From positions 1 through 25,854 of the IMG/VR virus record IMGVR_UViG_3300027906_003334: a stretch of DNA of 25,854 nt; one strand, 5' to 3'. The translations under genes were made by a program, and so were the position numbers. Source of the stretch: a virus. Shown here in pieces: positions 4,370-20,362 of the stretch. Every line of letters begins with the position of its first letter. The stretch's first letter is position 1. Below the pieces are notes generated by a model that saw only the letters and a list, made by a program, of their open reading frames with translations, was not told where the DNA came from and ran no database searches.

Positions 4370-5622
4370 AATATTTCTTTCAATTTAGGTATATATTTTT
4401 CTATAGTGTTAAAGGGGGTATCTTCATCAATTAGCCATCTATAAGTAGGTATTAATCTCCTTACAACTTTTTTCTTTTTGTTATCATCTTCATCATACTG
4501 TACAACTTCTGAATGAAAAGTAAAATCTACACCATCTGGGGGATCGCCTATAGTTGTCTCTAAGTATTCATAAAAATCAGCTACTAATTTTTTCATAGGC
4601 CAATCTTTTTTATCATAAGAACACAACCATTTAGGTGTATAAGTGTCTCCATCTTCAACATATTCTAACTTATCTTCTATTCTAGAAAATGTGTGTTTAT
4701 GATTTTTATAAGATCCAATTCCTAATACATTATAATTTGTCGCGTGTAATATATGGGATTCGGTGCACAAGCCGTCAAGGTGTATATCTTGTTGAGACAT
4801 TTCATCCCAATCTATTTCTTTTTTATACATCTTCAATTCTTTTCTACACTTTCTTCCCGTTTCATCACGAAAATAATCTTCTTGTTGTACGCCTTCCATA
4901 CCTCCCACACAATATTGACTATTATCATTCAAAAATTTGTTAACTAATTTACAAACTATAGGATCGTATTTTCCCAATTCATCAAAAATTGTTTGGACAC
5001 TTATTTCTGATATATCATGATCTATTAATTTTTGTATATCTGAAGAAAGTCTATCTAAGTCTTTTTGTAAATCTCCCGTATCAAAAAAGATAACATCTGA
5101 CATTGTAAATAATCCTAGTGAATTTGCATAGTCTATGAATTCAAAAATAACATCATCATTTTTTGGTGCTCTTCGTTTTTGTTGTTTTACTACTTCTCTA
5201 TCAAAACTCTGTACACAAGCTATTACTGTATTAAAGTTATATTCTTTTAGAACATCTAATTGTTCCTTATGTAATCTGGAATCTGCCATGTGAAATTCCA
5301 TTAATTTTCTTGGACACTCTTTGAAATTGGGGATGAGATCAAATATATTTCTCATTATTTCTGGAGTCATTAATGAGGGAGTACCACCACCCCAAAAATA
5401 ATTACGAATGAGACCTGAACTTAATACAGGCTCATAAAATTTAATCATGTGGGGGAGATATTCTGAATAATAACGTTGGAAGGCATTCTTTTCAAACATT
5501 GAACCCTTAAAAGTACAATAACTACATTGCTCTTTACAAAAGGGACTATGTATGTAAACTCCCGTTTTAAGTTCTGTATTACTCCATGCCGTTAAAATAT
5601 CTTCAGAGGTAAGGTCTTTCAT
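4366..5622 (-). CDS. HemW/HemN-like radical SAM protein
   Basis: A 418-residue radical SAM enzyme. The 4Fe-4S/SAM motif CKEQCSYC (Cys 29, 33, 36) follows YIHSPF exactly as in the coproporphyrinogen dehydrogenase/HemW family. GGGTPSLM (78-85) and the later VQSFDREVVKQQKRR are also HemW-type. I use ATG at 5622, six bases after the previous stop with a GGGAA upstream; a TTG start at 5637 would add five residues and overlap the preceding gene. True HemW proteins act in haem trafficking and HemN in haem synthesis, but family resemblance alone does not give the substrate: HemN-like proteins also include methyltransferases and cyclopropanases. Its place between a DUF6445 gene and a methyltransferase gene points to a tailoring step. 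The C-terminal 120 residues are divergent and rich in Lys, Asp and Glu. Confidence 0.85.
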   Translation of the reverse strand: MKDLTSEDILTAWSNTELKTGVYIHSPFCKEQCSYCTFKGSMFEKNAFQRYYSEYLPHMIKFYEPVLSSGLIRNYFWGGGTPSLMTPEIMRNIFDLIPNFKECPRKLMEFHMADSRLHKEQLDVLKEYNFNTVIACVQSFDREVVKQQKRRAPKNDDVIFEFIDYANSLGLFTMSDVIFFDTGDLQKDLDRLSSDIQKLIDHDISEISVQTIFDELGKYDPIVCKLVNKFLNDNSQYCVGGMEGVQQEDYFRDETGRKCRKELKMYKKEIDWDEMSQQDIHLDGLCTESHILHATNYNVLGIGSYKNHKHTFSRIEDKLEYVEDGDTYTPKWLCSYDKKDWPMKKLVADFYEYLETTIGDPPDGVDFTFHSEVVQYDEDDNKKKKVVRRLIPTYRWLIDEDTPFNTIEKYIPKLKEIL

Positions 5623-5627
5623 TTTAA

Positions 5628-6383
5628 TTATTCCCAAAAAAATACTTGTGATATTCTATCGGTAATATTATTCGGCTTGTCACTTTTTAGTACCGGATAA
5701 TGTAGCATACCCCCAAAATAAGTTACCATTGAATTATACTTACCTTGAGATTGATATATTATTTCCCAATTATCAATGTCAGTTGATACATCTTTTATAG
5801 GCGGGACCTTTTTCATATATTCCTCATATTTACTTACTTTATTCAAATAAGTATTAGGTTCTAAACCTTCAATATCGGTAATCCAGTCCACATGAAGAGG
5901 GTGGCGAGGATACACACAAATATCTGATAACTTGTGCCTGCAAATAGCACTTCCCAAATTATCATCTGGAGGCTTATTTAAATAGATCACACTCGAAAGT
6001 ATACTACGATCACTATGAGGATTCCTTTCAGGGGACTCAACATCAAAATTACTAAAAATATTACACATAAATTGATTGTGTACATTTAAATTTTCAAGAT
6101 CAATATAATTACTAATACCCAATTTTAATAATAACACTCCTTTTAATTGATCTACGATACCTTCTATATTGAGCAAATCACTTCTTTGATATCTATGATA
6201 TCCAAATTCTTTATAAGTAGGAAATTCGGGGAGAGGTGACTGTAGTATAAAATCTCTCACTATATCTGGATTTTCATAAAAATTATCAATAATAACTACT
6301 GGGTATTTTCCTTCTATTAAAGTAGTATGAATCTCCATGTCTAGATTTAGTCTAAACATTTCATTATTATCATACGATATCAT
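5628..6383 (-). CDS. DUF6445 protein, 2OG-Fe(II) oxygenase-like (copy B)
   Basis: A 251-residue protein of the DUF6445 type. The N-terminus YPVVIIDNFYENPDIVRDF (27-45) is the family opening. NPHSD (H123-x-D125), the segment GSAICRHKLSD (144-154, where family members have GTAFYRH) and a distal His in GGMLHYP (H228) together look like the HxD...H iron site of a prolyl-hydroxylase-type jelly-roll oxygenase. DUF6445 proteins often sit beside tryptophan halogenases in bacteria, as here. The ATG at 6383 lies 14 bases inside the preceding carbamoyltransferase C-half. Its opening MISYDN aligns with MTVYDN in the paralogue at 6956-7765, but overall identity is modest, so this is an old duplication or two acquisitions. 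The 2OG co-substrate and hydroxylation chemistry are inferred from the motif. Confidence 0.8.
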   Translation of the reverse strand: MISYDNNEMFRLNLDMEIHTTLIEGKYPVVIIDNFYENPDIVRDFILQSPLPEFPTYKEFGYHRYQRSDLLNIEGIVDQLKGVLLLKLGISNYIDLENLNVHNQFMCNIFSNFDVESPERNPHSDRSILSSVIYLNKPPDDNLGSAICRHKLSDICVYPRHPLHVDWITDIEGLEPNTYLNKVSKYEEYMKKVPPIKDVSTDIDNWEIIYQSQGKYNSMVTYFGGMLHYPVLKSDKPNNITDRISQVFFWE

Positions 6384-6951
6384 CAGACTTTTTAAATAAG
6401 AAATTTCCCATAATGAGATAATCTATTTTAGTAGATTTAAATGTTTTTAATGCATCTTCGGGTGATTCTACTATAGGTTCACCATTCACGTTGAATGAAG
6501 TATTTAATAAAATTGGTACAGAAGTTTGTTTATAAAATTCCTTTAACAATTGAAAAATGGGTTTATTTAGGCGTTCTGTTACAGTTTGTATTCTTGCTGT
6601 ACCATCTACATGTGTTACTGCGGGAACTTGACCTATTTTATCGGGCCGAAGGTGAGCATTAAAAAGCATATAAGGAGAAGATTTTTTAGGAATATCATAC
6701 CATTCATAAACATACTCTTCTAACATAATTGGAGCATAAGGTCTCCACTCTTCTCTATGTTTAACTTGTTTATTGATATAATCTTGATTATCTATAATTG
6801 TAGGATTAGCTAGTATAGACCTATTTCCCAATGCTCTAGGTCCGTATTCACTGCGACCTTGAAACCAACCGATAATCTTATTTTCTATTAAATAATTAAC
6901 AACTTGTTCACATAATATATTAAAATTTTCATACTCTTTATAAGTTATCAT
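6370..6951 (-). CDS. Carbamoyltransferase C-terminal (YrdC-like) domain as a separate gene
   Basis: This 193-residue protein is the C-terminal half of a NodU/CmcH/TobZ-type O-carbamoyltransferase. The signature GWFQGRSEYGPRALGNRSIL lies at residues 28-47, followed by the REEWRPYAP segment, VTHVDGTARIQTV and LNTSFNVNGEP, all in family order. In the fused family this YrdC-like domain makes carbamoyl-adenylate from carbamoyl phosphate and ATP. The missing N-terminal half is encoded separately at 7752-9032, with a DUF6445 gene in between. I use ATG at 6951, which has AAAGG eight bases upstream; a TTG at 6969 would add six residues. The protein is complete, with no internal stop, so it looks like a working subunit and not a decayed fragment. 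Confidence 0.88.
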   Translation of the reverse strand: MITYKEYENFNILCEQVVNYLIENKIIGWFQGRSEYGPRALGNRSILANPTIIDNQDYINKQVKHREEWRPYAPIMLEEYVYEWYDIPKKSSPYMLFNAHLRPDKIGQVPAVTHVDGTARIQTVTERLNKPIFQLLKEFYKQTSVPILLNTSFNVNGEPIVESPEDALKTFKSTKIDYLIMGNFLFKKSDDIV

Positions 6952-6955
6952 AAAT

Positions 6956-7765
6956 TTAACCTTTACCAATTGAGTCCCAAAATATCATTTGATTGATTCG
7001 TTTAAAGTTTTTATCTTTCATTAAACCTAAATCAGAATGTAATGGACCGTGTAACATTCCTCCCATATAGGAAATCATTTGATTAAACTTTCCTTCCGTT
7101 TTATATAATACGTTGTAATTTTTATCATCTTCTAGTATAGAATTTTTACATGAAGGATTACTTTTACGCCAGTCTTCATATCTTTTCACTTTTAATTTAT
7201 AATCATTAGGTGATATGTTTTCTTTTTTACATACCCAATTAAGCTGAATTTCATTATTGGGATATACACAGATACCAGTTTCTTTATGTTGATAAAACCC
7301 GGTACCCATTGTGTCATGATTATTTTTATTTAGATAAATTATTGAGGCCATTACAGAAGTATCACTATGAGGTAAAAAAGAACTGTGTTCATTCATTTTA
7401 AACTCTGGATGCATCACATTCATGCAAAAGTTACTATTTTGATTTTCTATATTTAATACATCTTTGATTAAATGAGATAAATCTAATTTTTGCATTACTA
7501 TTAAAGATATAGTATCTAAAAATGTTTTATTAGCAATAAAGTTACTAATTTCAAGTCTACTACCCACAAATGCATTAGTCTCCACATAATGAGTAGGTAT
7601 TGGTAGAGATAGAGCGAAATCTCGCACTTCATCCGGATGTTTATATACATCATCAATAATAACTATTGGATATAAATCTGAAATCATGACAACATGTATT
7701 GTCGCATTAGGATTATATTCAAACATTGTTTTATTATCATAAACTGTCATATCACGAGTGTTCAT
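6956..7765 (-). CDS. DUF6445 protein, 2OG-Fe(II) oxygenase-like (copy A)
   Basis: A 269-residue DUF6445 protein lying between the two halves of the carbamoyltransferase. It has the family opening YPIVIIDDVYKHPDEVRDF (32-50), the putative iron site LPHSD (H133-x-D135), GTGFYQHKETG (154-164), a close match to the family's GTAFYRHR segment, and the distal His in GGMLHGP (H239). Hydroxylation or another oxidative step using 2-oxoglutarate is the likely chemistry, by motif only. ATG at 7765 overlaps the end of the N-half gene by 14 bases and has GAGGA upstream. An ATG at 7750 gives MTVYDN, which aligns with the start of copy B, so either may be real. This copy keeps family motifs better than copy B (GTGFYQH against GSAICRH). 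Confidence 0.82.
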   Translation of the reverse strand: MNTRDMTVYDNKTMFEYNPNATIHVVMISDLYPIVIIDDVYKHPDEVRDFALSLPIPTHYVETNAFVGSRLEISNFIANKTFLDTISLIVMQKLDLSHLIKDVLNIENQNSNFCMNVMHPEFKMNEHSSFLPHSDTSVMASIIYLNKNNHDTMGTGFYQHKETGICVYPNNEIQLNWVCKKENISPNDYKLKVKRYEDWRKSNPSCKNSILEDDKNYNVLYKTEGKFNQMISYMGGMLHGPLHSDLGLMKDKNFKRINQMIFWDSIGKG

Positions 7766-9032
7766 CTAATCCTCGTACAAAATCATTAATATCATATTCC
7801 ATTCCAATACATCCTATATTATGAGGTAAACTTAAGCTGTCCTCAAATTTCCAAGCACATAATATAGCGGCACCAAAATTTAAACCATCATCATTGGGTG
7901 CTGTGGGAACAAAAACATCTTCATATACTCCATCCTCTATAATTTTAGAATTGGCAATAATGTTCAATGCACATCCACCCGATAAACATATTTTTTTACT
8001 TTTAATATCTTCAGGAATATTTTTTAATAACGAAATTAAATAATGTTCAAAATTATATTGTAACCAAGATGCTAAATCTTCTGCGCAATAATCATGTTCG
8101 TTATCGGAAATATAATCTTTGATATGAAAATTAGTACAGATAACAGGCCACTCCTCTCCGTTGCCATATACATTTTCCTTTTTAAACGACAAATAAAATA
8201 AATCATCACATTTTATATTTTTATAATCTCCGTATGATGCAAGACCCATTATTTTACCTGCATATTTTTCTCTATCTAAACCTCCACCAACATAATCCTC
8301 CGGGTGAATACCAATAAAATTTGTAGCATCTACTTCTGAGTCGGCCGATATTAAATTTAATAATTTTTTCCTCATATTTGTTTTATACTCAACAGACTCC
8401 GTATCAGTATACTTAATATCATCTGTTTTTAATCTATAGATATATTCTCCTAATTCAGTATAAGCTCCGCCAAACATATTTTCACCTGAATAGGTACATG
8501 TTTTGTTATGAACAGTAATTTTTTTATCTGAAAAATTAAAAGAATAAAAAGAGGTATTATTTAATAGAACTTTAGGTTCAATTCCATCTGACATCAAACA
8601 AAAATCACCCGCGCCGTCAAATGTAAACACATTTGATTCGTTGAAACCTGAAGCTAAAAATGTTCCTGCGGCATGAGCAAGATGATGATCTACAAAATAT
8701 ATTTTAGCATTGGGAAAGTTTACCTTTAAAGCTTCGGTGAAATATCCTTGAATTTTTAAATAATGCCCCATAAGAGTTGCATTTGAGACCCATGCTACTA
8801 TATCAATATCATTTTTTGTTAAATTACTCGATTTTAACAATTTATTTGTGGCCGATTTAGGATATCTTCCATCATGTTTAACTCGCGATAATCTTTCTTC
8901 TGATATTGAACCTATTAATTCACCATCAATAAAAAGTGTGGCGCCACTACCATGAACCCAAAAATCTTGGTCTTTCACATATTCTATTCTGCCATCCCAC
9001 CCAAGAGAACCATTTATTCCAAGTATATTCAT
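7752..9032 (-). CDS. Carbamoyltransferase N-terminal (Kae1-like) domain as a separate gene
   Basis: A 426-residue protein corresponding to the N-terminal, Kae1-like ASKHA-fold domain of NodU/CmcH/TobZ carbamoyltransferases. This domain binds the acceptor and transfers the carbamoyl group from carbamoyl-adenylate. Visible family features in order: MNILGINGS start, GSISEERLSRVKHDG (41-55), FVDHHLAHAAG with the metal-binding HHxxH (116-120), TFDGAGD (137-143), the KIMGLASYG segment, and LSGGCALN near the C-terminus. It stops just after the end of this domain (VRGLDEHS), where fused homologues continue into the GPRALGNRS domain; here that is the gene at 6370-6951. The ATG abuts the U32-like gene stop. 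Together the two halves total about 620 residues, the usual length of a fused enzyme. The acceptor, sugar or otherwise, cannot be told from the sequence. Confidence 0.9.
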   Translation of the reverse strand: MNILGINGSLGWDGRIEYVKDQDFWVHGSGATLFIDGELIGSISEERLSRVKHDGRYPKSATNKLLKSSNLTKNDIDIVAWVSNATLMGHYLKIQGYFTEALKVNFPNAKIYFVDHHLAHAAGTFLASGFNESNVFTFDGAGDFCLMSDGIEPKVLLNNTSFYSFNFSDKKITVHNKTCTYSGENMFGGAYTELGEYIYRLKTDDIKYTDTESVEYKTNMRKKLLNLISADSEVDATNFIGIHPEDYVGGGLDREKYAGKIMGLASYGDYKNIKCDDLFYLSFKKENVYGNGEEWPVICTNFHIKDYISDNEHDYCAEDLASWLQYNFEHYLISLLKNIPEDIKSKKICLSGGCALNIIANSKIIEDGVYEDVFVPTAPNDDGLNFGAAILCAWKFEDSLSLPHNIGCIGMEYDINDFVRGLDEHS

Positions 9033-10265
9033 TTAAATTTTAATATCTTTTGTTATTACAGAGCTATCATAATCAGGTATTCCAAATGCTCTTTCACATT
9101 CATGACAATTATAACATTGAGAACGACAATTCAATAGAATTTTATTAAGTCTTTGTCCTGTATCAGAAAGCCAAAATTCATCTTGTAAAAAATCTTCGGA
9201 ATATTCTTTAAAATTATCTTCTGTCAAATTATCATCTTTATCAGTAGGTTGGACTATCAACCATCTATCAAAAGGCACGGTATTTAAATCATAACATTTT
9301 TGAAAAGAAGAAGAGTATAAACTAAAGCCGTCATCTCCCATAGAATTAGAACGTAAAAGTTTAATATTTTTACTTTTTATATCATCTTCAGTATAGATGT
9401 TATATCTGTTTCCATCAAGTCTACCAGAACTTTTTAATATATTAACTGTGTTTAAATATTCATCTAAAAATTCTTTAGTTGATACAACCATATTAATACC
9501 ATTTCTGGGCAATTTATCTCTTTCATCAGATTTCCAATGGTTACAAGATAATGTTGATAGGGCATTACCCTCTCCCCAATAATTACTACTAATAGTTCCA
9601 CCAACCGTGTCATGTTCCAATTTAAAAGGGCATCGATATAAACAAGATTCACTTAATAACAATGAAGTTTGTATATCAGGATGACTCTCTGATAAAAACT
9701 TATAGATTCTTTTTAATTCTTTAATATTTCTATTTAAAGACCTATCTAATAATATAGTATTAAAACCACAACCAATAGTATCTGCGACCTGTTGCCCATC
9801 GGATATTAAATGATTTACTGTATTTTTCCAATGCATATCAGGACATCGCCGTTGTAACTTTCCTGTTCTCATAATATGCATATTACCAATAGTACAACTT
9901 CTCAACCCCTTATCATAATATTTTCCTATCCATTCAACAAAATCATCCTGTAATGTTTGATCTAATAGTAGTTCATCTGGATATGTGGTTGAATTCATAG
10001 TTAATGAAACACATACTCCAAATTCTTCTTGTATTCTAAGTAAATTTTCAGTTTGTTCGTCTGTGGCTTCTGATCCCATAGCATTACCCACAAACTTCAT
10101 TCTCCTTTGATATTTGTAATAAAAATTCTTACCAAAGTATATGTCTTCTATTTCATTAAGAATTGATTTTGGAGTATTTTTTATCACTAGATAATAATGA
10201 TTTGGGTAGCCGTTTTCTAGACCCTTTTCAGGATGGGCAATAGAAAATCTGCGTGTGAAATCCAT
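9033..10265 (-). CDS. U32-peptidase-like (UbiU/RlhA-type) Fe-S protein with C-terminal Cys4 motif
   Basis: A 410-residue protein whose layout resembles the U32 'peptidase' family, whose known members (UbiU, UbiV, RlhA/YdcP) are mostly oxygen-independent hydroxylation proteins with Fe-S clusters and not proteases. The middle has the TIM-barrel-like run VADTIGCGFNTILLDRSLN, followed by LLLSESCLYRCPFKLEH and LSCNHW, then FQKCYDL: four cysteines in the order typical of the U32 cluster site. The C-terminus adds a second motif, C-x3-C-x2-C-x2-C (380, 384, 387, 390). ATG at 10265 has AAGGA ten bases upstream. It directly abuts the carbamoyltransferase N-half. The family call rests on motif pattern only and is moderately sure; a divergent radical-SAM-like TIM barrel is the alternative, though a CxxxCxxC near the N-terminus is absent. 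Confidence 0.62.
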   Translation of the reverse strand: MDFTRRFSIAHPEKGLENGYPNHYYLVIKNTPKSILNEIEDIYFGKNFYYKYQRRMKFVGNAMGSEATDEQTENLLRIQEEFGVCVSLTMNSTTYPDELLLDQTLQDDFVEWIGKYYDKGLRSCTIGNMHIMRTGKLQRRCPDMHWKNTVNHLISDGQQVADTIGCGFNTILLDRSLNRNIKELKRIYKFLSESHPDIQTSLLLSESCLYRCPFKLEHDTVGGTISSNYWGEGNALSTLSCNHWKSDERDKLPRNGINMVVSTKEFLDEYLNTVNILKSSGRLDGNRYNIYTEDDIKSKNIKLLRSNSMGDDGFSLYSSSFQKCYDLNTVPFDRWLIVQPTDKDDNLTEDNFKEYSEDFLQDEFWLSDTGQRLNKILLNCRSQCYNCHECERAFGIPDYDSSVITKDIKI

Positions 10266-10277
10266 AATGGTATATCC

Positions 10278-10898
10278 TTAAATAGTTTTTTTGTATATCA
10301 TAAAAGCTAACCAACTGTTTTCTATATGATATATTGTTTGTTCATACGTATTCAAAAATAAATCTAATGCTTTTTTTGTTCCAGTGTATCCTGTATTCTT
10401 GTAGTCATGCCAAAAGACCAATGCATTATCAACAATATTATTCATAACATTAACACTATCTTTCATTATACCATATACAGAATGATCACCATCAATATAT
10501 ACAAAATCAAATTTTGGAAGATTATTATATGTTGAACCTTTGGTTGAATCGGCATAAATTAAATTCACATCTACTTTTTTATTTTTAAATATTATCCCCA
10601 CATCTTCTTTTTTTAAAACTTCAGAGGCCTGAGTAGAATCAATATAACCTCGCATACCTTTAAAAATATCAATTGTATATACATTAGATTTTGAAGAAGC
10701 TAATTTAAAACTACAAGAAGTATGTCCTGCAAATGTGCCGATTTCTAATACATTTTTTCTATGTTTAGAAGAAAGCATGTCTAACAGAATTTGTAAATCT
10801 CTCCTAGGAGTGGCAGACCATTCAAAATCATAATTATTTTTTTCAGCACCCACCATACTATATGCTTCATTAGTACTGATTGTTTTTATACTAGTCAT
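10278..10898 (-). CDS. Class I SAM-dependent methyltransferase (Methyltransf_24-like)
   Basis: A 206-residue methyltransferase of the same broad group as the one at 3767-4369. Motif I is NVLEIGTFAGHTS (about 49-61), VYTIDIFKG carries the acidic ribose-binding residue, and FDFVYIDGDHSVYG (about 127-140) with FWHDYKNTGYTG are the group hallmarks. The N-terminal SATPRRDLQILLDML is typical of lid helices in this family, and it resembles catechol or small-molecule O-methyltransferase-like proteins more than nucleic-acid methylases. It overlaps the halogenase stop by eight bases, so it is probably co-translated with it, which suggests that methylation and halogenation act on the same compound. The substrate is not identifiable. 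Confidence 0.85.
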   Translation of the reverse strand: MTSIKTISTNEAYSMVGAEKNNYDFEWSATPRRDLQILLDMLSSKHRKNVLEIGTFAGHTSCSFKLASSKSNVYTIDIFKGMRGYIDSTQASEVLKKEDVGIIFKNKKVDVNLIYADSTKGSTYNNLPKFDFVYIDGDHSVYGIMKDSVNVMNNIVDNALVFWHDYKNTGYTGTKKALDLFLNTYEQTIYHIENSWLAFMIYKKTI

Positions 10899-12456
10899 TA
10901 TATATATTGTCTTTTAAATACCTATACATACTAGGAAACTGAGATACATATTCTTTTTGATACTTGATATACTGACCTATATCTTTATGTATTTTTAAGT
11001 TATTCTCTATATAACGTTCATCACTTGTCACTTTATCTACTACAGGATTCATACCAAACCCCGCCATTATATAAGGTGTGCCATCTTCAGGTTTTAAATG
11101 TTGCCATTTATTAATATGCTCATCATAAAATTCCGGTATGTATACATGTAAATATTTGGTCCAAGTTTCTTTTATAGATAGATAGTCTATATCTTCCGTT
11201 ATAGTTTTCCAATACTCGGTATCATTCTTTGTGGCCATAGCATAATGACCAATAACAAATCCAACAAAATATTCAGAACGATGTTGTACACGTTTGTTGA
11301 ATATTGACTTATCATAACCATTCACAATTCCATCGCGAGCAACTAAAGTATCTACCAGGATCTCTATTGCATCACCTATAAACATTAATCCAGTAGCCTC
11401 AAGAGGTTCTATAAACCCATTAGATAATCCTATAGCACATACATTTTTAACCCAGCTTCTTTCATGAAAGCCTGGAGTCATTTGTATGTGACTGTATTGT
11501 AATGAATTAATTATTTCTTTTGAACATTTAGTATTATTAATTAAATATTCTTTAAATTCTTTTTCGGCTTCATCTTCTGTCAAAAACTGTGAACTATAAA
11601 CATAACCTTTACCAATATTAGTCCAAAGAGGTACATTCCATATCCAGCCATTTTTATGTGCGTATGAATCTGTACTTGTCACCATTTCTTGTTCTATATC
11701 TGTATATGGAATATGAGTTGCTACAGCCCTATCATTGAGTAAATATTTTTCAAATGAAACAAATGGAGTATTTAATGTTTCTCCTAATAATAAAGATTTA
11801 AATCCTGTACAATCTATAAACAAATCGGCATCATATTCAGTACCATTTGATGAGGTTAAACTTTTTATAGTACCATCATAATCTACTATAACATCTTTTA
11901 TAGTATCTTGTATATAATTTAATCCTCGAGGTAATGCATAATCGTTCTTTAAATAATTAGCGAATAGAGTTGCATCTAACTGAAACCCTGTCATGTCTTT
12001 AAAATCAAATCCAATTATATTATCATCATCATGAACAAATTTCTCTTGTCTTAATAACTCTGAGTGTCCCATAGCAAACTGTTCATAACTATAATGATTT
12101 TTAATAGTTTTATCTTGTTTGTATATGAACCAATCAATAGGTTTATATTTGTTTAACCATGTCCCTTTACCAAAAGGATATTTAATTGTTTTACCATCTC
12201 CAGACCAATTAGTAAAATCTATTGACAATTTATAAGTAGCATTACATTTAGTCATCCATTCTTCATCTTTAAGTCCTATAATGTCTGTATATTGCCGAAA
12301 TATTTGTACCGTAGATTCACCAACACCTATAGTTGAAATATTTTCAGATTCCACTAACGTTATATCTTTATCTGGAAACTTACCTATCAATGCAGCGGCA
12401 GTCATCCACCCTGACGATCCCCCTCCAATAATAAGAATTTTATTAATTTTTTTCAT
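10891..12456 (-). CDS. Flavin-dependent tryptophan-halogenase-type enzyme
   Basis: A 521-residue FADH2-dependent halogenase, the usual family length. The dinucleotide motif GGGSSGW (11-17) opens the protein, followed by VGESTVQIFRQY. Lys75 in CNATYKLSIDF corresponds to the conserved lysine (K79 in PrnA) that carries or positions hypohalous acid. DCTGFKS lies at 215-221. GWIWNVPL holds W270, W272 and P275 of the WxWxIP halogenase motif, with Val for Ile. EPLEATGLMFIG (349-360) holds the active-site glutamate region. All catalytic positions appear intact. From memory, cyanophage Syn10 encodes a related halogenase (VirX1) able to iodinate diverse substrates, so halogenases are known in marine phages; whether this one uses tryptophan is open. 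No flavin reductase is encoded nearby. It overlaps the preceding GT9 gene by 14 bases. Confidence 0.92.
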   Translation of the reverse strand: MKKINKILIIGGGSSGWMTAAALIGKFPDKDITLVESENISTIGVGESTVQIFRQYTDIIGLKDEEWMTKCNATYKLSIDFTNWSGDGKTIKYPFGKGTWLNKYKPIDWFIYKQDKTIKNHYSYEQFAMGHSELLRQEKFVHDDDNIIGFDFKDMTGFQLDATLFANYLKNDYALPRGLNYIQDTIKDVIVDYDGTIKSLTSSNGTEYDADLFIDCTGFKSLLLGETLNTPFVSFEKYLLNDRAVATHIPYTDIEQEMVTSTDSYAHKNGWIWNVPLWTNIGKGYVYSSQFLTEDEAEKEFKEYLINNTKCSKEIINSLQYSHIQMTPGFHERSWVKNVCAIGLSNGFIEPLEATGLMFIGDAIEILVDTLVARDGIVNGYDKSIFNKRVQHRSEYFVGFVIGHYAMATKNDTEYWKTITEDIDYLSIKETWTKYLHVYIPEFYDEHINKWQHLKPEDGTPYIMAGFGMNPVVDKVTSDERYIENNLKIHKDIGQYIKYQKEYVSQFPSMYRYLKDNIYND

Positions 12457-14225: not shown

Positions 14226-14798
14226 TCAAGCGTTATTTTCTTGTTCATAATACAGCCATGTAGTAACTGTAAATCCTGTAGGTATAATTTGAGTCCATGA
14301 GGCACTTCCGTTCACAGCAATGGCTGAGCAACTTCCAGAAAATCCTCTGGCAGACCCGTAACCGTATCCAAATCCGTAACCATAACCTGTACGGCCACAA
14401 TATCTTCCACAGTAATGGGCACAATAACGGGCACAATAGCGAGCACAAAAGTGAGCACAGTATCTAGCACAGTAATGAGCACAGTAACATGCGGTATGGT
14501 AATGCCAATATCTGCCGGCAGTACCACTATCTGCACCTCCCTGAGTACCACCATCAGAGCCGGAGAAAGTTCCTCCTTCAGCTCCAGAATCCGCTCCACC
14601 TTCTAGACCATCTGCGTGAGTGGCAACATGTCTCGCAGTACTATATTCAATGGCTTCTATTAATTTACAAACACCATGTGCAATCCATGTCGTTCCGGAT
14701 GGTACACTATCTGATGCAATTGTGGGTAGAGAAGCATTATTAATAGTGGCTTTAAATACTACTCCACCACCTCCTTCTTCACCAATTACTCCTGTCAT
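14226..14798 (-). CDS. Cys/Tyr/His period-4 repeat fibre-like protein, copy 3
   Basis: I do not recognise the family of this 190-residue protein. It has three parts. Residues 1-62 form a beta-rich head (GGGGVVFKATINNASLP, SDSVPSGTTWIAHGVC). Residues 63-152 form one continuous array with a four-residue period: Gly-rich units such as GGAD, SGAE, GGTF and SGSD, then YWHYHTAC, then Cys at 106, 110, 114, 118, 122, 126, 130 and 134 in YCAH/YCAR units, then GYGYGFGYGYG. Residues 153-190 form a tail with IAVNGSASWTQIIPTGF, which echoes the head. In an extended strand Cys and His/Arg would lie on one face and Tyr/Ala on the other. Its place among fibre genes and the absence of a signal peptide suggest a virion fibre or tip. 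It is a close paralogue of the next gene. Confidence 0.85.
   Translation of the reverse strand: MTGVIGEEGGGGVVFKATINNASLPTIASDSVPSGTTWIAHGVCKLIEAIEYSTARHVATHADGLEGGADSGAEGGTFSGSDGGTQGGADSGTAGRYWHYHTACYCAHYCARYCAHFCARYCARYCAHYCGRYCGRTGYGYGFGYGYGSARGFSGSCSAIAVNGSASWTQIIPTGFTVTTWLYYEQENNA
14391..14489 (-). repeat. 12-bp-period tandem array encoding YCA[HR] units (copy 3)
   Basis: Eight 12-base units code for residues 104-136 of the protein. The codons for Tyr, Cys and Ala are largely conserved, while the fourth codon alternates between His and Arg. Unit sequences differ at silent positions, so the array is not a fresh slippage product and the protein pattern has been kept by selection. Confidence 0.9.
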
Positions 14799-14810
14799 AG
14801 TTTCTCCATT

Positions 14811-15407
14811 TTACCCGGCATTATTTTCTTCTTCATAATACAGCCATGTAGTAGCTGTAAATCCTGTAGGTATAATTTGAGTCCATGATGAACTACCATT
14901 TACTGCTATTGCTGAACAAGACGCACCATAACCTCTTGCAGAGCCGTAACCATATCCAAATCCGTAACCATAACCTGTACGGCCACAATATCTTCCACAA
15001 TAATGGGCGCAATATCGAGCACAATATCTTGCGCAAAAGTGGGCACAGTATCTAGCACAATAGTGAGCACAGTAACAAGCAGTATGGCCAGACCAATATC
15101 GGCCGGAAGTACCACCATCTGCTCCGCTGAATGTACCACCATCAGAACCAGAAAAAGTTCCTCCTTCAGCTCCAGAATCCGCCCCACCTTCTAGACCATC
15201 AGCATGGGTAGCAGTAACGCGTGAAGTACTATATTCAATGGCTTCTATTACTTTACAGACACCATGTGCAATCCATGTTTTTCCTGCTGGAACACTATCT
15301 GATGCAATTGTGGGGAGAGATGCATTACTAATAGTGGCTTTAAATACTACTCCACCACCAGATTTTGCTTTACCAGTTTTTGTAGCTGAGCCTAGTACAC
15401 CTGACAT
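14811..15407 (-). CDS. Cys/Tyr/His period-4 repeat fibre-like protein, copy 2
   Basis: A 198-residue paralogue of the products on either side, closest to copy 3. The N-terminus is eight residues longer (MSGVLGSATKTGKAKSGGG). The beta-rich head, Gly-rich four-residue units, YWSGHTAC, eight YC units (Cys 113 to 141, every fourth residue), GYGYGFGYGYG and the SSSWTQIIPTGF tail all recur in the same order. Changes relative to copy 3 are mostly in the head and in the Gly-rich units, while the cysteine array is identical residue for residue. A 12-base gap separates it from copy 3, with an AGG ribosome-binding site before each ATG. Recent tandem duplication with strict conservation of the array is the simplest reading. 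The biochemical role is unknown. Confidence 0.85.
   Translation of the reverse strand: MSGVLGSATKTGKAKSGGGVVFKATISNASLPTIASDSVPAGKTWIAHGVCKVIEAIEYSTSRVTATHADGLEGGADSGAEGGTFSGSDGGTFSGADGGTSGRYWSGHTACYCAHYCARYCAHFCARYCARYCAHYCGRYCGRTGYGYGFGYGYGSARGYGASCSAIAVNGSSSWTQIIPTGFTATTWLYYEEENNAG
14979..15077 (-). repeat. 12-bp-period tandem array encoding YCA[HR] units (copy 2)
   Basis: The units code for residues 111-143. The protein array equals that of copy 3, but synonymous changes separate the DNA (for example gcgcaatat against gcacaataa), which points to purifying selection on the amino-acid pattern. Confidence 0.9.
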
Positions 15408-15420
15408 AGTTTACCTATTT

Positions 15421-15993
15421 TTATTTATTGGACTCTTCTTCATAATACAGCCATGAAGTAATTGAGAATCCAGAAGGAATAATTTGAGTCCATGAGGCAC
15501 TTCCGTTCACAGCAATGGCTGTACAGTCTGCTGCATATCCTCTCGCGGATCCATAACCATATCCAAATCCATAACCATATCCTGCTCGTCCACAATACAG
15601 AGCACAATATCTTGCGCAATAGTGAGCACAGTATCTAGCACAGTAATGAGCACAATATCTAGCACAGTAATGAGCACAATAACAAGCAGTATGATGATGC
15701 CAATAACTGCCCTGAGCACCACCATCTGCTCCGCCCTGAGTACCACTATCTGCCGCGCCTTCTGTACCTGAATCTGCACCACCCTCGGCCCCTCCTGAGG
15801 TTCCATCTGCACCTGTCTCAGAAACAGTCGCGGTACTGTATACAATAGCTTCCGCTGATGTACAAACACCATGAGCAACCCATGTTTTTCCTGCTGGAAC
15901 ACTATCTGTTGCAATTGTAGGAAGAGTGGCACTACTAATAGAACCTTTAAATAGGGTTCCGCCGCCCCCTCCTGCGCCTACTACTCCTGACAT
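15421..15993 (-). CDS. Cys/Tyr/His period-4 repeat fibre-like protein, copy 1
   Basis: A 190-residue paralogue and the most divergent of the three. The head is GGGGTLFKGSISSATLP with a conserved HGVC (Cys44). The Gly-rich units run from about residue 66 (GGAE, GGAD, SGTE, GAAD, SGTQ, GGAD). YWHHHTAC then leads into an unusually regular alternation of YCAH and YCAR, with Cys at 106 to 134 every four residues and Leu replacing Arg or His in the last unit but one. GYGYGFGYGYG and SASWTQIIPSGF close it. It is first of the three in transcription order, 44 bases after the 126-residue gene, with AGGA before the ATG. No close T4 counterpart comes to mind; a metal-binding or cross-linked virion fibre is my inference. 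Confidence 0.85.
   Translation of the reverse strand: MSGVVGAGGGGGTLFKGSISSATLPTIATDSVPAGKTWVAHGVCTSAEAIVYSTATVSETGADGTSGGAEGGADSGTEGAADSGTQGGADGGAQGSYWHHHTACYCAHYCARYCAHYCARYCAHYCARYCALYCGRAGYGYGFGYGYGSARGYAADCTAIAVNGSASWTQIIPSGFSITSWLYYEEESNK
15586..15684 (-). repeat. 12-bp-period tandem array encoding YCAH/YCAR units (copy 1)
   Basis: The array codes for residues 104-136. Here the alternation of His and Arg units is nearly perfect, giving a higher-order period of 24 bases (eight residues), unlike the other two copies, where the order is broken at the fifth and sixth units. Confidence 0.88.
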
Positions 15994-16037: not shown

Positions 16038-16418
16038 TTAACCGGGATTAGGCGCGTCACCATCTCTCTCTGGAACAGAAGAATCATAAGCATCAAACCG
16101 ATCTTCATGAACTAAAATAGGAGGAAGATCACCTACTGATCTTGTCATAACATACCATCCATCAGGATATGCCGGCCATTGTTCGCCGGATCTTGGTCGT
16201 AACAACATTTCAGAATTATAATCAATATGTATTCCATCAATATTACCATGTGCAACTGAAACCCACTCAGACCGGAAATCTTTCCAAGCTTGTACAGTTG
16301 CAGCATCAAGTTGGTATGGATTGTCGTCTGCAACTAGGGCATTCGTCAACTCTAACTCACCCATCATTCGCATAAGAAGTTTATATCTTATGTCTGTTAT
16401 ACTATTATTTGCTGGCAT
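16038..16418 (-). CDS. Small acidic protein of the fibre region, unknown
   Basis: A 126-residue protein I do not recognise. It has no signal peptide or membrane helix. The N-terminal half is helical (TDIRYKLLMRMMGELELTNA, AATVQAWKDFRSEW), and the rest is rich in Pro, Asp, Arg and Trp, ending in VPERDGDAPNPG. The combination of a short helical head with an AWKDFR-type segment recalls phage tail-fibre assembly chaperones, which often sit next to fibre genes, but this is only an analogy. It lies between a small structural gene and the Cys-repeat genes, with AAGGA upstream of its ATG and a 16-base perfect palindrome just before that. Confidence 0.7.
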   Translation of the reverse strand: MPANNSITDIRYKLLMRMMGELELTNALVADDNPYQLDAATVQAWKDFRSEWVSVAHGNIDGIHIDYNSEMLLRPRSGEQWPAYPDGWYVMTRSVGDLPPILVHEDRFDAYDSSVPERDGDAPNPG

Positions 16419-16449: not shown

Positions 16450-16803
16450 TCAAGTGGACCAATCCTGATCAATATAGGATACGACAATATCTATATCACA
16501 GGACGCATTAGCCTTAAATACTAAATGGTCTTTTTCTTGTAGTACAAGTCTATCATTAAATATGAAGGTTTTATTTCCTCCCAACTCAGTATCGGAAAGA
16601 ATTTCATAATCGGTACTTCCACCATTTTTAGCAATAAATAAATCAAAAGTTTTATCTGCGGCCGCAGTATTACAAATTGTACAACTTAAAAGTGTGTATA
16701 TATGTTCTTTGCTACCATTTATTATTTTTTCTTCACTTGTCCCAGTAACAGTAAAATATCCTGTTTTTAGGGTTTCGGTTCCAAATCCTGAAGGTATTGC
16801 CAT
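16450..16803 (-). CDS. Small virion structural protein, paralogue of the gene at 21392
   Basis: A 117-residue beta-rich protein. It shares its opening (MAIPSGFGTETLKT against MAIARGAGTEIIRT), a central HIYTLLS/HVYTVLS strand, a FIFNDRL/FVWNDKF strand and its ending (VVSYIDQDWS against VTFIDQNNS) with the 151-residue product of 21392-21847. The two are clearly paralogues in the same fibre block. The fold looks like a compact jelly-roll or beta-sandwich, as found in phage decoration, tail or fibre-attachment proteins. AGGAT lies before the ATG, and the gap to the next upstream gene is only three bases. The precise role is unknown. Confidence 0.8.
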   Translation of the reverse strand: MAIPSGFGTETLKTGYFTVTGTSEEKIINGSKEHIYTLLSCTICNTAAADKTFDLFIAKNGGSTDYEILSDTELGGNKTFIFNDRLVLQEKDHLVFKANASCDIDIVVSYIDQDWST

Positions 16804-17111: not shown

Positions 17112-19043
17112 TTAAATTCTAGACTTCAATTCATCTATCTGTTTTTGTTGTTCTTTAATTGCTTCAAGAAGAACTGCTGTCATTTTAGTATATTGAACTC
17201 CATGTACTTCCCCATCTTCATCATGAGTTACCAAATGAGGAAATACTTCGGCTACTTCTTCTGCAATGAATCCATAATTATCTTTTGTACCTTCTTTCCA
17301 ATCAAATTTTACTCCTTGCATTTGTAGAACTGCAGGAAGTATATTTTCAAGAGGTTCAATATTAGTTTTCATTTCTCTACTAGAAGTTTCAGTAAGTGTT
17401 CCTGCGATGGTCAAGGTATCTGCACTTTCATCCCATTCACAATATTTACTAGCGGTTGCACCAAAAAACTTTACATCGTGGCCGGTGTCATTTACACCAA
17501 CAGTTAAAGTTCCTGTAAGTTGCATATTACCAGTTTGGTCTGAACTTCCGACAATTTTCATTTGATCTGCGGATTCATCCCACAACCAATAACTACTAGC
17601 AGTTGCACCGAAAAACTTAACATCATGTCCTGTATCATCTACACCTACAGTTAAAGTTCCTTGTTGTACTACTCCATCTGCTGATTGATCCCACATCCAA
17701 TATTTACCGGCCGTGTCACCAAATAACTTAACATCATATCCAGTACCATCTACACCAACTGTTACTAATCCAGTTTCATCTATCTTCATTCGTTGTGTAC
17801 CGGCGGTATAGAAATCTAAATCATCATTATCGGCTCCTGCTGATGTTTCTGCAATGATTTTAGTATCTTGGTCAACATCAATAAGTCCACCAAGTCCTGA
17901 CCATGTTGATCCACTATAACCTTCAAAAGAACTTGTTGTGGTATTGTATCTAATTCCACCTTGAACCGCCGTTCCTCTTTGGGCGGTTGTTCCAACTGGA
18001 ATAACAATAGTTGTTTGTGCATCAAATTTTCCTGCAATATGAGGAGCATCTTGTTTTACATAAAGAGGTACTGCGGCTGTTGCTGAGGCGTGATTTTGAA
18101 TTATACTTACGACATTTCTTGTTCCAGTATCGTCTGAATCTGAATCAATATAAAGAGATGAACCAGTAGTTGCTGAATCATCATAAATGTTTATAACTTT
18201 ACCTGTAGTAATTGATTCTGCTTGAATATCAAGAATTGTACCGCTTGTTGCTGCTGAAGCTATTTTTGCAACATTTGTTGATGCTTGTTCTGAATCAATT
18301 TCAAGTGCATAACCACCAGTCTGTAAATTCGAATCAATGAATACTCCTCGACCCGCATCGGCTTGAACTTGAATTGCAGTAGATCCTGTTGCAAGTGCAC
18401 TATCGTTTGTAACTTTAAAAAGAGTTCTGGTGCCTGTAGAAGTCGAACTGGAATTTAACATCATCAAAGATCCAGTAGTAAGGGCTCCTGCCGTAACATC
18501 AATAGCATTACCAGTAGTTAATGAATTTGCATCAATATCTAAAACATTTGCACTAGATTGTTCTGCATCAACATCTATCGCTATTTGATCTACATCTGCT
18601 GAAGTAATTGAAATAGCAGGCTTTCCTGCAGCAGCTCCTTGTTCTACATTTAAATGTCCAGTAAATGTATTAGCCCATCCAAATGTAGTATTACCAAGAT
18701 CGAAATTCATATCTGCATTAGGAATCATATTGGAATTGATATCGGCAGAAAAAGATACTTGATCTGTTGCCGCATCTCCAAAGACAAGATTACCACTAAT
18801 AGTTGTATCACCATCAGTTATAACATTACCATGTACTCTTAGGTTTTCACCTATCGTGGCTGATTTTAATACTCCTAGACCACCTGCGGTAATAATAGAA
18901 CCTGTAGTATTACTCGTTGAGTTTGTAGTATCTAACACCTTAATGAAATTACTCATTCCATCAGTCTGTGTCATTACTATAACTTCGTTAGTCTTGACTC
19001 TCCATTGATCAAAACTGTCTGTCAAGGCTACGTTTGCACTCAT
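17112..19043 (-). CDS. Tail fibre with C-terminal S74 intramolecular chaperone
   Basis: A 643-residue fibre protein. Residues 1-60 form a head with the LDTTNSTSNTTGSIITAGGLGV pattern common in marine phage fibres. Residues about 100-380 are low-complexity Ala/Ser/Thr/Asp beta repeats (units such as ALTTGSL, SITTGKV, SATTGSS). Three units of VGVDxTGxDVKxFGxTAxxYWxWDxSAD follow. The last 90 residues are an S74 peptidase-type chaperone of endosialidases and many fibres: Ser554 and Lys559 in SSREMK form the self-cleavage dyad, followed by TNIEPLENI, YGFIAEEVAEVFPHLV and a helical LLEAIKEQQKQIDELKSRI. The domain trimerises the fibre and then cleaves itself off. A GATAAATA late-promoter match lies 43 bases upstream. 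This is probably a receptor-binding or side fibre. Confidence 0.92.
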   Translation of the reverse strand: MSANVALTDSFDQWRVKTNEVIVMTQTDGMSNFIKVLDTTNSTSNTTGSIITAGGLGVLKSATIGENLRVHGNVITDGDTTISGNLVFGDAATDQVSFSADINSNMIPNADMNFDLGNTTFGWANTFTGHLNVEQGAAAGKPAISITSADVDQIAIDVDAEQSSANVLDIDANSLTTGNAIDVTAGALTTGSLMMLNSSSTSTGTRTLFKVTNDSALATGSTAIQVQADAGRGVFIDSNLQTGGYALEIDSEQASTNVAKIASAATSGTILDIQAESITTGKVINIYDDSATTGSSLYIDSDSDDTGTRNVVSIIQNHASATAAVPLYVKQDAPHIAGKFDAQTTIVIPVGTTAQRGTAVQGGIRYNTTTSSFEGYSGSTWSGLGGLIDVDQDTKIIAETSAGADNDDLDFYTAGTQRMKIDETGLVTVGVDGTGYDVKLFGDTAGKYWMWDQSADGVVQQGTLTVGVDDTGHDVKFFGATASSYWLWDESADQMKIVGSSDQTGNMQLTGTLTVGVNDTGHDVKFFGATASKYCEWDESADTLTIAGTLTETSSREMKTNIEPLENILPAVLQMQGVKFDWKEGTKDNYGFIAEEVAEVFPHLVTHDEDGEVHGVQYTKMTAVLLEAIKEQQKQIDELKSRI

Positions 19044-19483: not shown

Positions 19484-20362
19484 TTAAATTTGGTATCTAA
19501 AAATTACAACGCCTGAACCACCACTCCAAGCGGCATTTGATCCTCCATCGGCGCCGCCTCCGCCTCCGCCGCCTGTATTTACTGTACCATTTGAACCATG
19601 GGCTCGGGTTATTTTACCGCCTGTTCCGCCGCCGCCATTACCACCTTTTCCTACACCGGTGTTGCTTGTTGTATAAACGCCAGAACCACCGCCGCCGGCA
19701 TAAAATTTACCACACCATTGTCGTCCATCTCCTCCGTTACCATTATTTCCGTGGCCTTGGCTCGTGGGTTGAATTTGGTTGTGATCGTGGTCACGGCCTT
19801 TCTGGCCTGCACCACCGCCTCCGCCTCCGTAGTAAGAGTCTGTCCAAGATTTCCCAACCGAATAGCCGTTTCCTCCATCATTACCTTGGCCCGCAACTCC
19901 AGTACCACCACTAGTATAGTCTGCACCACCCGCAGAGCCTCCGTTTTGAGTGTTAGCAGAACCTTCATGTCCAACTCCCCCCGTTCCGCACTCGCCTCCG
20001 CCACCTCCTTGAGCAGTGATAGTCAAACTTCCTGCGGTAATAGTTGAGTTGGCTCCACTTTCACCACCTTTGTCATTTCCACCGGCACCGCCAGCTCCTA
20101 TTACAACTGCATAAGTTTGTGGAGTAACATGTAATGTATCTGTTATCATACCGCCGGCTCCGCCTCCACCGCCAGAAGCAGATGGGCCACCATTTCCGGA
20201 ACCACCACCGCCACCACCAGCGACACATAGATATTCAACTAATCCTGGAACTGAAGGTACAAAATTACCTGAGGATGTAAAGGTATGATATTTCCAGTTA
20301 TCAACTGTAGTTATTGTGCCGCCTGTTGCTACGACACCCAACGATCTTCCAATTAATGCCAT
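19484..20362 (-). CDS. Glycine-rich adhesin/fibre tip protein
   Basis: A 292-residue protein with a beta head (TVDNWKYHTFTSSGNFVPSV, about 20-39) that matches the opening of glycine-rich tail-fibre domains, then about 230 residues dominated by runs of Gly interrupted by Ala, Asn, Ser and Asp, and a short closing strand VVIFRYQI. Glycine-rich adhesins at the tips of T4-like long tail fibres (the gp38 class) fold as bundles of polyglycine type II helices and decide host range; this protein is built the same way, so a receptor-binding tip is my inference. The DNA is much more GC-rich than its neighbours because of glycine codons. Its last codon region overlaps the upstream gene's stop by one base, so the two may be coupled. 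Confidence 0.82.
   Translation of the reverse strand: MALIGRSLGVVATGGTITTVDNWKYHTFTSSGNFVPSVPGLVEYLCVAGGGGGGSGNGGPSASGGGGGAGGMITDTLHVTPQTYAVVIGAGGAGGNDKGGESGANSTITAGSLTITAQGGGGGECGTGGVGHEGSANTQNGGSAGGADYTSGGTGVAGQGNDGGNGYSVGKSWTDSYYGGGGGGAGQKGRDHDHNQIQPTSQGHGNNGNGGDGRQWCGKFYAGGGGSGVYTTSNTGVGKGGNGGGGTGGKITRAHGSNGTVNTGGGGGGGADGGSNAAWSGGSGVVIFRYQI

Follow-up and report, generated by a model that had tools for sequence, protein, structure and literature searches.

A tandem cysteine-array protein family encoded among tail genes of uncultured phages

The window analysed here, the whole 25,854-nt stretch of IMG/VR virus record IMGVR_UViG_3300027906_003334, carries T4-like genes (UvsW, UvsY and a sigma factor). 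Its nearest named UvsW relatives are those of methylophage Melnitz, Synechococcus phages and pelagiphage Mosig, at 51–54%. Three tandem open reading frames on the minus strand, each containing a Cys array, encode what we term Cys-lattice protein 1 (15421..15993, 190 amino acids (aa)), protein 2 (14811..15407, 198 aa) and protein 3 (14226..14798, 190 aa). Identity to protein 1 is 71% for protein 2 and 69% for protein 3, and proteins 2 and 3 share 88%. Protein 1 consists of terminal regions predicted to form a beta domain and an insert of ~105 residues. Each of the three proteins has 11 Cys: eight in the array, one two residues upstream of it, and single N- and C-terminal ones.

The insert runs from an acidic Gly array through a basic Cys array to a Gly-Tyr array. 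In protein 1 these comprise a Gly/acid array of period 4 (15712..15807, minus strand; DGTS GGAE GGAD SGTE GAAD SGTQ GGAD GGAQ), the Cys array (C104 to R136; 15586..15684, minus strand) and a Gly-Tyr tail (15547..15582, minus strand; GYGYGFGYGYGS). The Cys arrays of proteins 2 and 3 lie at 14979..15077 and 14391..14489, both on the minus strand. The eight Cys at an exact spacing of four that the initial annotation had described are present in all three reading frames, as are the Gly-rich period-4 segment ([GS]-G-[AT]-[DE]) before the Cys array and the GYGYGFGYGYG after it. In 100,000 composition-preserving shuffles per protein, the longest run of Cys at spacing 4 was five, never eight. The units are YCAH, YCAR or YCGR, that is, YC[A/G]x, and the strict alternation of His and Arg that had been read into them does not hold, the order being HRHRRHRR in proteins 2 and 3, with a Leu in protein 1. 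Compared unit by unit, [GS]-G-[AT]-[DE] and Y-C-A-[HR] carry charge at the same position with opposite sign: acids fall mostly at the fourth position of Gly units and bases at the fourth position of Cys units, and the Cys array and Gly-Tyr tail have no acidic residues. At the DNA level the arrays show tandem periodicities of 12 and 24 bp. An HxH-like stretch (WHHHT or WHYHT) stands just upstream of the array in two of the three window proteins.

Upstream of the array genes lies a long tail fibre gene whose product ends in a Peptidase_S74 chaperone (17112..19043, minus strand), a neighbour shared by the main-lineage relatives. Between the fibre and array genes are two conserved neighbours on the same strand, encoding a 117-aa protein (16450..16803) and a 126-aa protein (16038..16418) that occurs in one or two copies in relatives. 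The order of fibre with S74 chaperone, 117-aa protein and array genes is constant in loci L031–L040, which bears out the tail-fibre context initially proposed and places the array genes within the tail structural module of these loci. Downstream is a cassette encoding GT9 enzymes, a 410-aa protein (9033..10265, minus strand; ~62–68% identity across array-bearing phages), a two-gene carbamoyltransferase and DUF6445 proteins, with a Trp halogenase in the window and L033. The most divergent lineage differs in its setting: in L006 and L007, three arrays lie between neck and tail genes (names read from the sequences) on the opposite strand, and no cassette gene occurs within these short contigs (8.8 and 5.0 kb). 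As judged by gene content, the array genes sit among structural genes in both types of locus. In L006, the three arrays (5477–7163) run opposite to the flanking neck and tail genes, beside a 115-aa protein whose C-terminal part resembles a 70-aa protein near the neck genes of other contigs. The 117-aa neighbour was considered as a homologous domain without the insert, but profile comparison did not support this.

Searches against known families returned no match, in agreement with the initial annotation, which had recognised no described family. For the three window proteins Pfam yielded nothing up to an E value of 1, and for two of them NCBIfam yielded nothing up to 0.1; the best PHROGs match among 20 family members had an E value of 0.32. 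Neither sequence nor profile searches of the PDB found a match, and the exact array strings were absent from the literature searched. Among named phages (50,697 records), tblastn found nothing credible, either with whole proteins or with hand-written consensus N- and C-terminal pieces; the family therefore marks a lineage for targeted isolation. On sequence grounds, the Cys-lattice proteins constitute a previously undescribed family with relatives found only in uncultured phages.

Pattern scans identified these relatives in 11 IMG/VR contigs, to which two metagenome-assembled genome (MAG) contigs were added. The MAG contigs are near-identical to L032 and L036; they were assigned to Chloroflexi and Pelagibacterales bins, which is not evidence of host. 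Relaxed DNA patterns recovered the family together with arrays that had arisen by chance and were unrelated to it (among them L012, L020, L024, L063 and L064), and another scan by pattern turned up no second family that has arrays of this kind. A Bryobacterales MAG (L042) was rejected as a relative: it matches only at a brief YCAH stretch that occurs by chance in a long frame unrelated to the family. All relatives occur as a tandem pair or triple except L039, where the contig (member at 9950–10276) stops where the Cys array starts. Short-read assembly may break at such repeats, and the family may thus be undercounted.

A tree of 20 members clustered paralogues by phage lineage, grouping the three window proteins, two each from L031 and L005, two paralogue groups from L032–L037 and three proteins from L006. 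The number of Cys units is eight in the window, seven in L031/L005, six in L032–L037 and five in L006; it is equal among co-encoded paralogues, and array lengths vary between lineages by whole four-residue units only. Because paralogues cluster by phage lineage, equal arrays could simply reflect duplicates or products of gene conversion. In L032–L037, two paralogue groups, one of them weakly supported (82/66), appear to predate the phage split, and both keep six units.

Across the family, Cys is present in 127/127 units (units were located by their Cys, and the alignment shows no broken unit inside any array), with Tyr in 104 and Ala in 96. The residue two positions after the Cys is Arg in 61 units, His in 43, Leu in 13, Ile in five, Gln in four and Val in one, and one His column is invariant in the alignment. 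Since Cys is invariant while this +2 position varies, Cys appears to be the functional core, with most His not individually required. Between the window paralogues, the arrays have pS of 0.55–0.84, pN of 0.05–0.12 and pN/pS of 0.10–0.17; pN/pS is 0–0.05 in the Gly-Tyr tail and 0.34–0.57 in the N-terminal part. The window arrays and Gly-Tyr tail are under purifying selection. The initial claim that the array is the best-conserved part while its DNA has drifted silently is thus right for the window, where the array and Gly-Tyr tail have the lowest pN/pS while synonymous sites are strongly diverged, but does not extend to L006, in which array pN/pS is ~0.5 and the array is not best conserved.

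Inspection of the alignment brought out a correspondence, not predicted beforehand, between the numbers of Gly/acid and Cys units, which are 5–6:5, 6:6, 7:7 and 7–8:8 in four lineages (two overshoots trimmed by hand). With a tolerant scorer, the counts of the two arrays differed by at most one in 18 of the 20 proteins, 14 of which had identical counts; in the other two, the Gly/acid count overshot into Ala/Ser/Thr-rich sequence. The scorer was written after the first regular-expression counts had been seen, so the counts are descriptive rather than a blind test; given this adjustment and a sample of four lineages, the match is no more than suggestive.

AlphaFold2 monomer models of two representatives, both run on one set of 20 sequences, agreed with each other. 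Both termini contribute to one small beta domain (means of pLDDT over 10-residue blocks mostly 70–87), with predicted strands at 13–21, 36–46, 154–163 and 176–188 of the window protein. Nearly all of the insert (~105 residues) had pLDDT below 50, with weak calls of helix, not strand. A fold search of the PDB and BFVD found no match, including to any known adhesin, and says little about the insert given the low confidence of its model. In all 20 aligned members, aromatic residues hold one parity across the Cys array and the Gly-Tyr tail, and the junction between the two, YCGxxGYG, is conserved (WCGxxGYG in one member). The extended strand originally suggested is therefore plausible from aromatic parity, whereas the monomer model, with its low pLDDT and weak helix calls, speaks against it. 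The findings neither favour nor contradict the trimer proposed initially.

These observations are consistent with a new tail-associated family of marine T4-like phages that provides an extended, cysteine-stabilised arm for host contact at or near the tail fibre, a reading we advance tentatively and with somewhat less than even confidence. Gene order suggests that the proteins are part of the virion. Their N- and C-terminal parts, as predicted, would fold together as one small beta domain, and the acidic and basic arrays, both in extended conformation, might pair side by side with each unit opposite its counterpart. The Gly-Tyr array would prolong the aromatic face, and the whole insert would form an elongated arm that may contact the host at or near the tail fibre. 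The invariant Cys could lock strands, or co-encoded paralogues, to one another, either through thiolate–metal sites or through disulphides that form once the cell has lysed; we slightly prefer disulphides because Cys alone is invariant. We count against the arm the low-confidence insert with its weak helix calls and the lack of a structural match to adhesins. The most likely role is nevertheless that of an arm on the virus tail that contacts the host and is cross-linked or bound to metal. A more specific picture, in which the acidic four-residue array matches the Cys-basic one unit for unit and the two form a ribbon on the tail, locked by cysteine, possibly modified by the cassette and acting as a redox- or metal-dependent host-contact arm, is speculative and on balance doubtful.

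An alternative is a metal-binding tail tip, with Zn, Fe or Cu held along the axis of the fibre by Cys and some His from several chains. HxH iron sites have been described in T4 gp37 and suggested for the tails of marine phages (PMC11705849); the tip would resemble them in function and might be connected with iron-dependent adsorption at sea. Cys at fixed spacing, followed two residues on by His in about a third of units, fits such a tip, but individual units do not conserve the His, and Arg is commoner at +2. This variation weakens the strict Cys-x-His metal site inferred initially. The repeated His-x-His of the gp37 type, with which a comparison was drawn at the same time, is absent from the arrays (units YCA[HR]), and we regard the metal tip as rather unlikely. 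Shared with the gp37 tip are the tail-fibre context and potential ligands at regular intervals on a segment that may be extended; it differs in that here Cys rather than His is invariant, the period is four residues, the proteins are separate and small, and there is no PDB sequence match.

Less probable than either the cysteine-stabilised arm or metal sites, and unlikely in itself, is that the YCA[HR] units are substrates for modification (for example, hydroxylation, halogenation, glycosylation or carbamoylation) by the enzymes encoded downstream. The cassette follows the arrays in the main lineages, and close relatives of the 410-aa protein occur on ten contigs, of which the eight that reach the array position all carry arrays and the two others end before it; near-identical repeated units would also suit a processive enzyme. 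Shared descent accounts for this co-occurrence equally well, however, because the phages are closely related; the short L006 and L007 contigs have arrays without a cassette gene, none of 117 cyanophage records with distant relatives of the 410-aa protein matched the array proteins, and the presence of GT9 and carbamoyltransferase is explained no less well by modification of glycans. High Cys content would also befit small non-virion proteins made during infection, serving redox buffering or metallothionein-like metal sequestration, but we consider this equally unlikely given a gene order inside the tail module and a Gly-Tyr array and predicted beta domain unlike metallothionein. That the arrays are functionless low-complexity products of slippage, maintained by repeat expansion, would explain their 12- and 24-bp periodicity but is highly improbable: it is contradicted by the selection pattern in the window arrays, in which synonymous change far exceeds nonsynonymous, and no unit has lost its Cys in any lineage.

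To our knowledge, Cys this dense and regular is a great rarity among the structural genes of phages. Salmonella phage S16 gp38 and related polyglycine-II adhesins also combine Gly-rich arrays with a small protein encoded after the long tail fibre. Polyglycine II has three residues per turn, whereas the periods here are four or two, the arrays are Cys-rich and the proteins have no Pfam Gly-rich match; in the window, such a match (Gly_rich_2, PF21722) belongs to a separate Gly-rich protein at 19484–20362. The high glycine-tyrosine keratin-associated proteins, which form cross-linking material, have Gly-Tyr dyads and many Cys. No homology is claimed for this resemblance, and the Cys-lattice proteins differ in their regular Cys spacing and flanking predicted beta domain. 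Should the arm prove to be linked by metal or disulphides, it would represent a new way to build a tail appendage and would bear on marine phage–host contact and on the debate over phage tails acting as metal ligands.

The 410-aa protein of the cassette has an invariant Cys cluster at its C-terminus and belongs to no Pfam family; a guess that it is U32-like had no Pfam support. A Trp halogenase-type flavoprotein (10891–12456) occupies the tail-adjacent cassette of the window; among the relatives it is confined to L033. At 6370–9032, the N and C domains of the carbamoyltransferase are encoded by separate genes with a DUF6445 gene between them, a split conserved in relatives, some of which have no gene in between.
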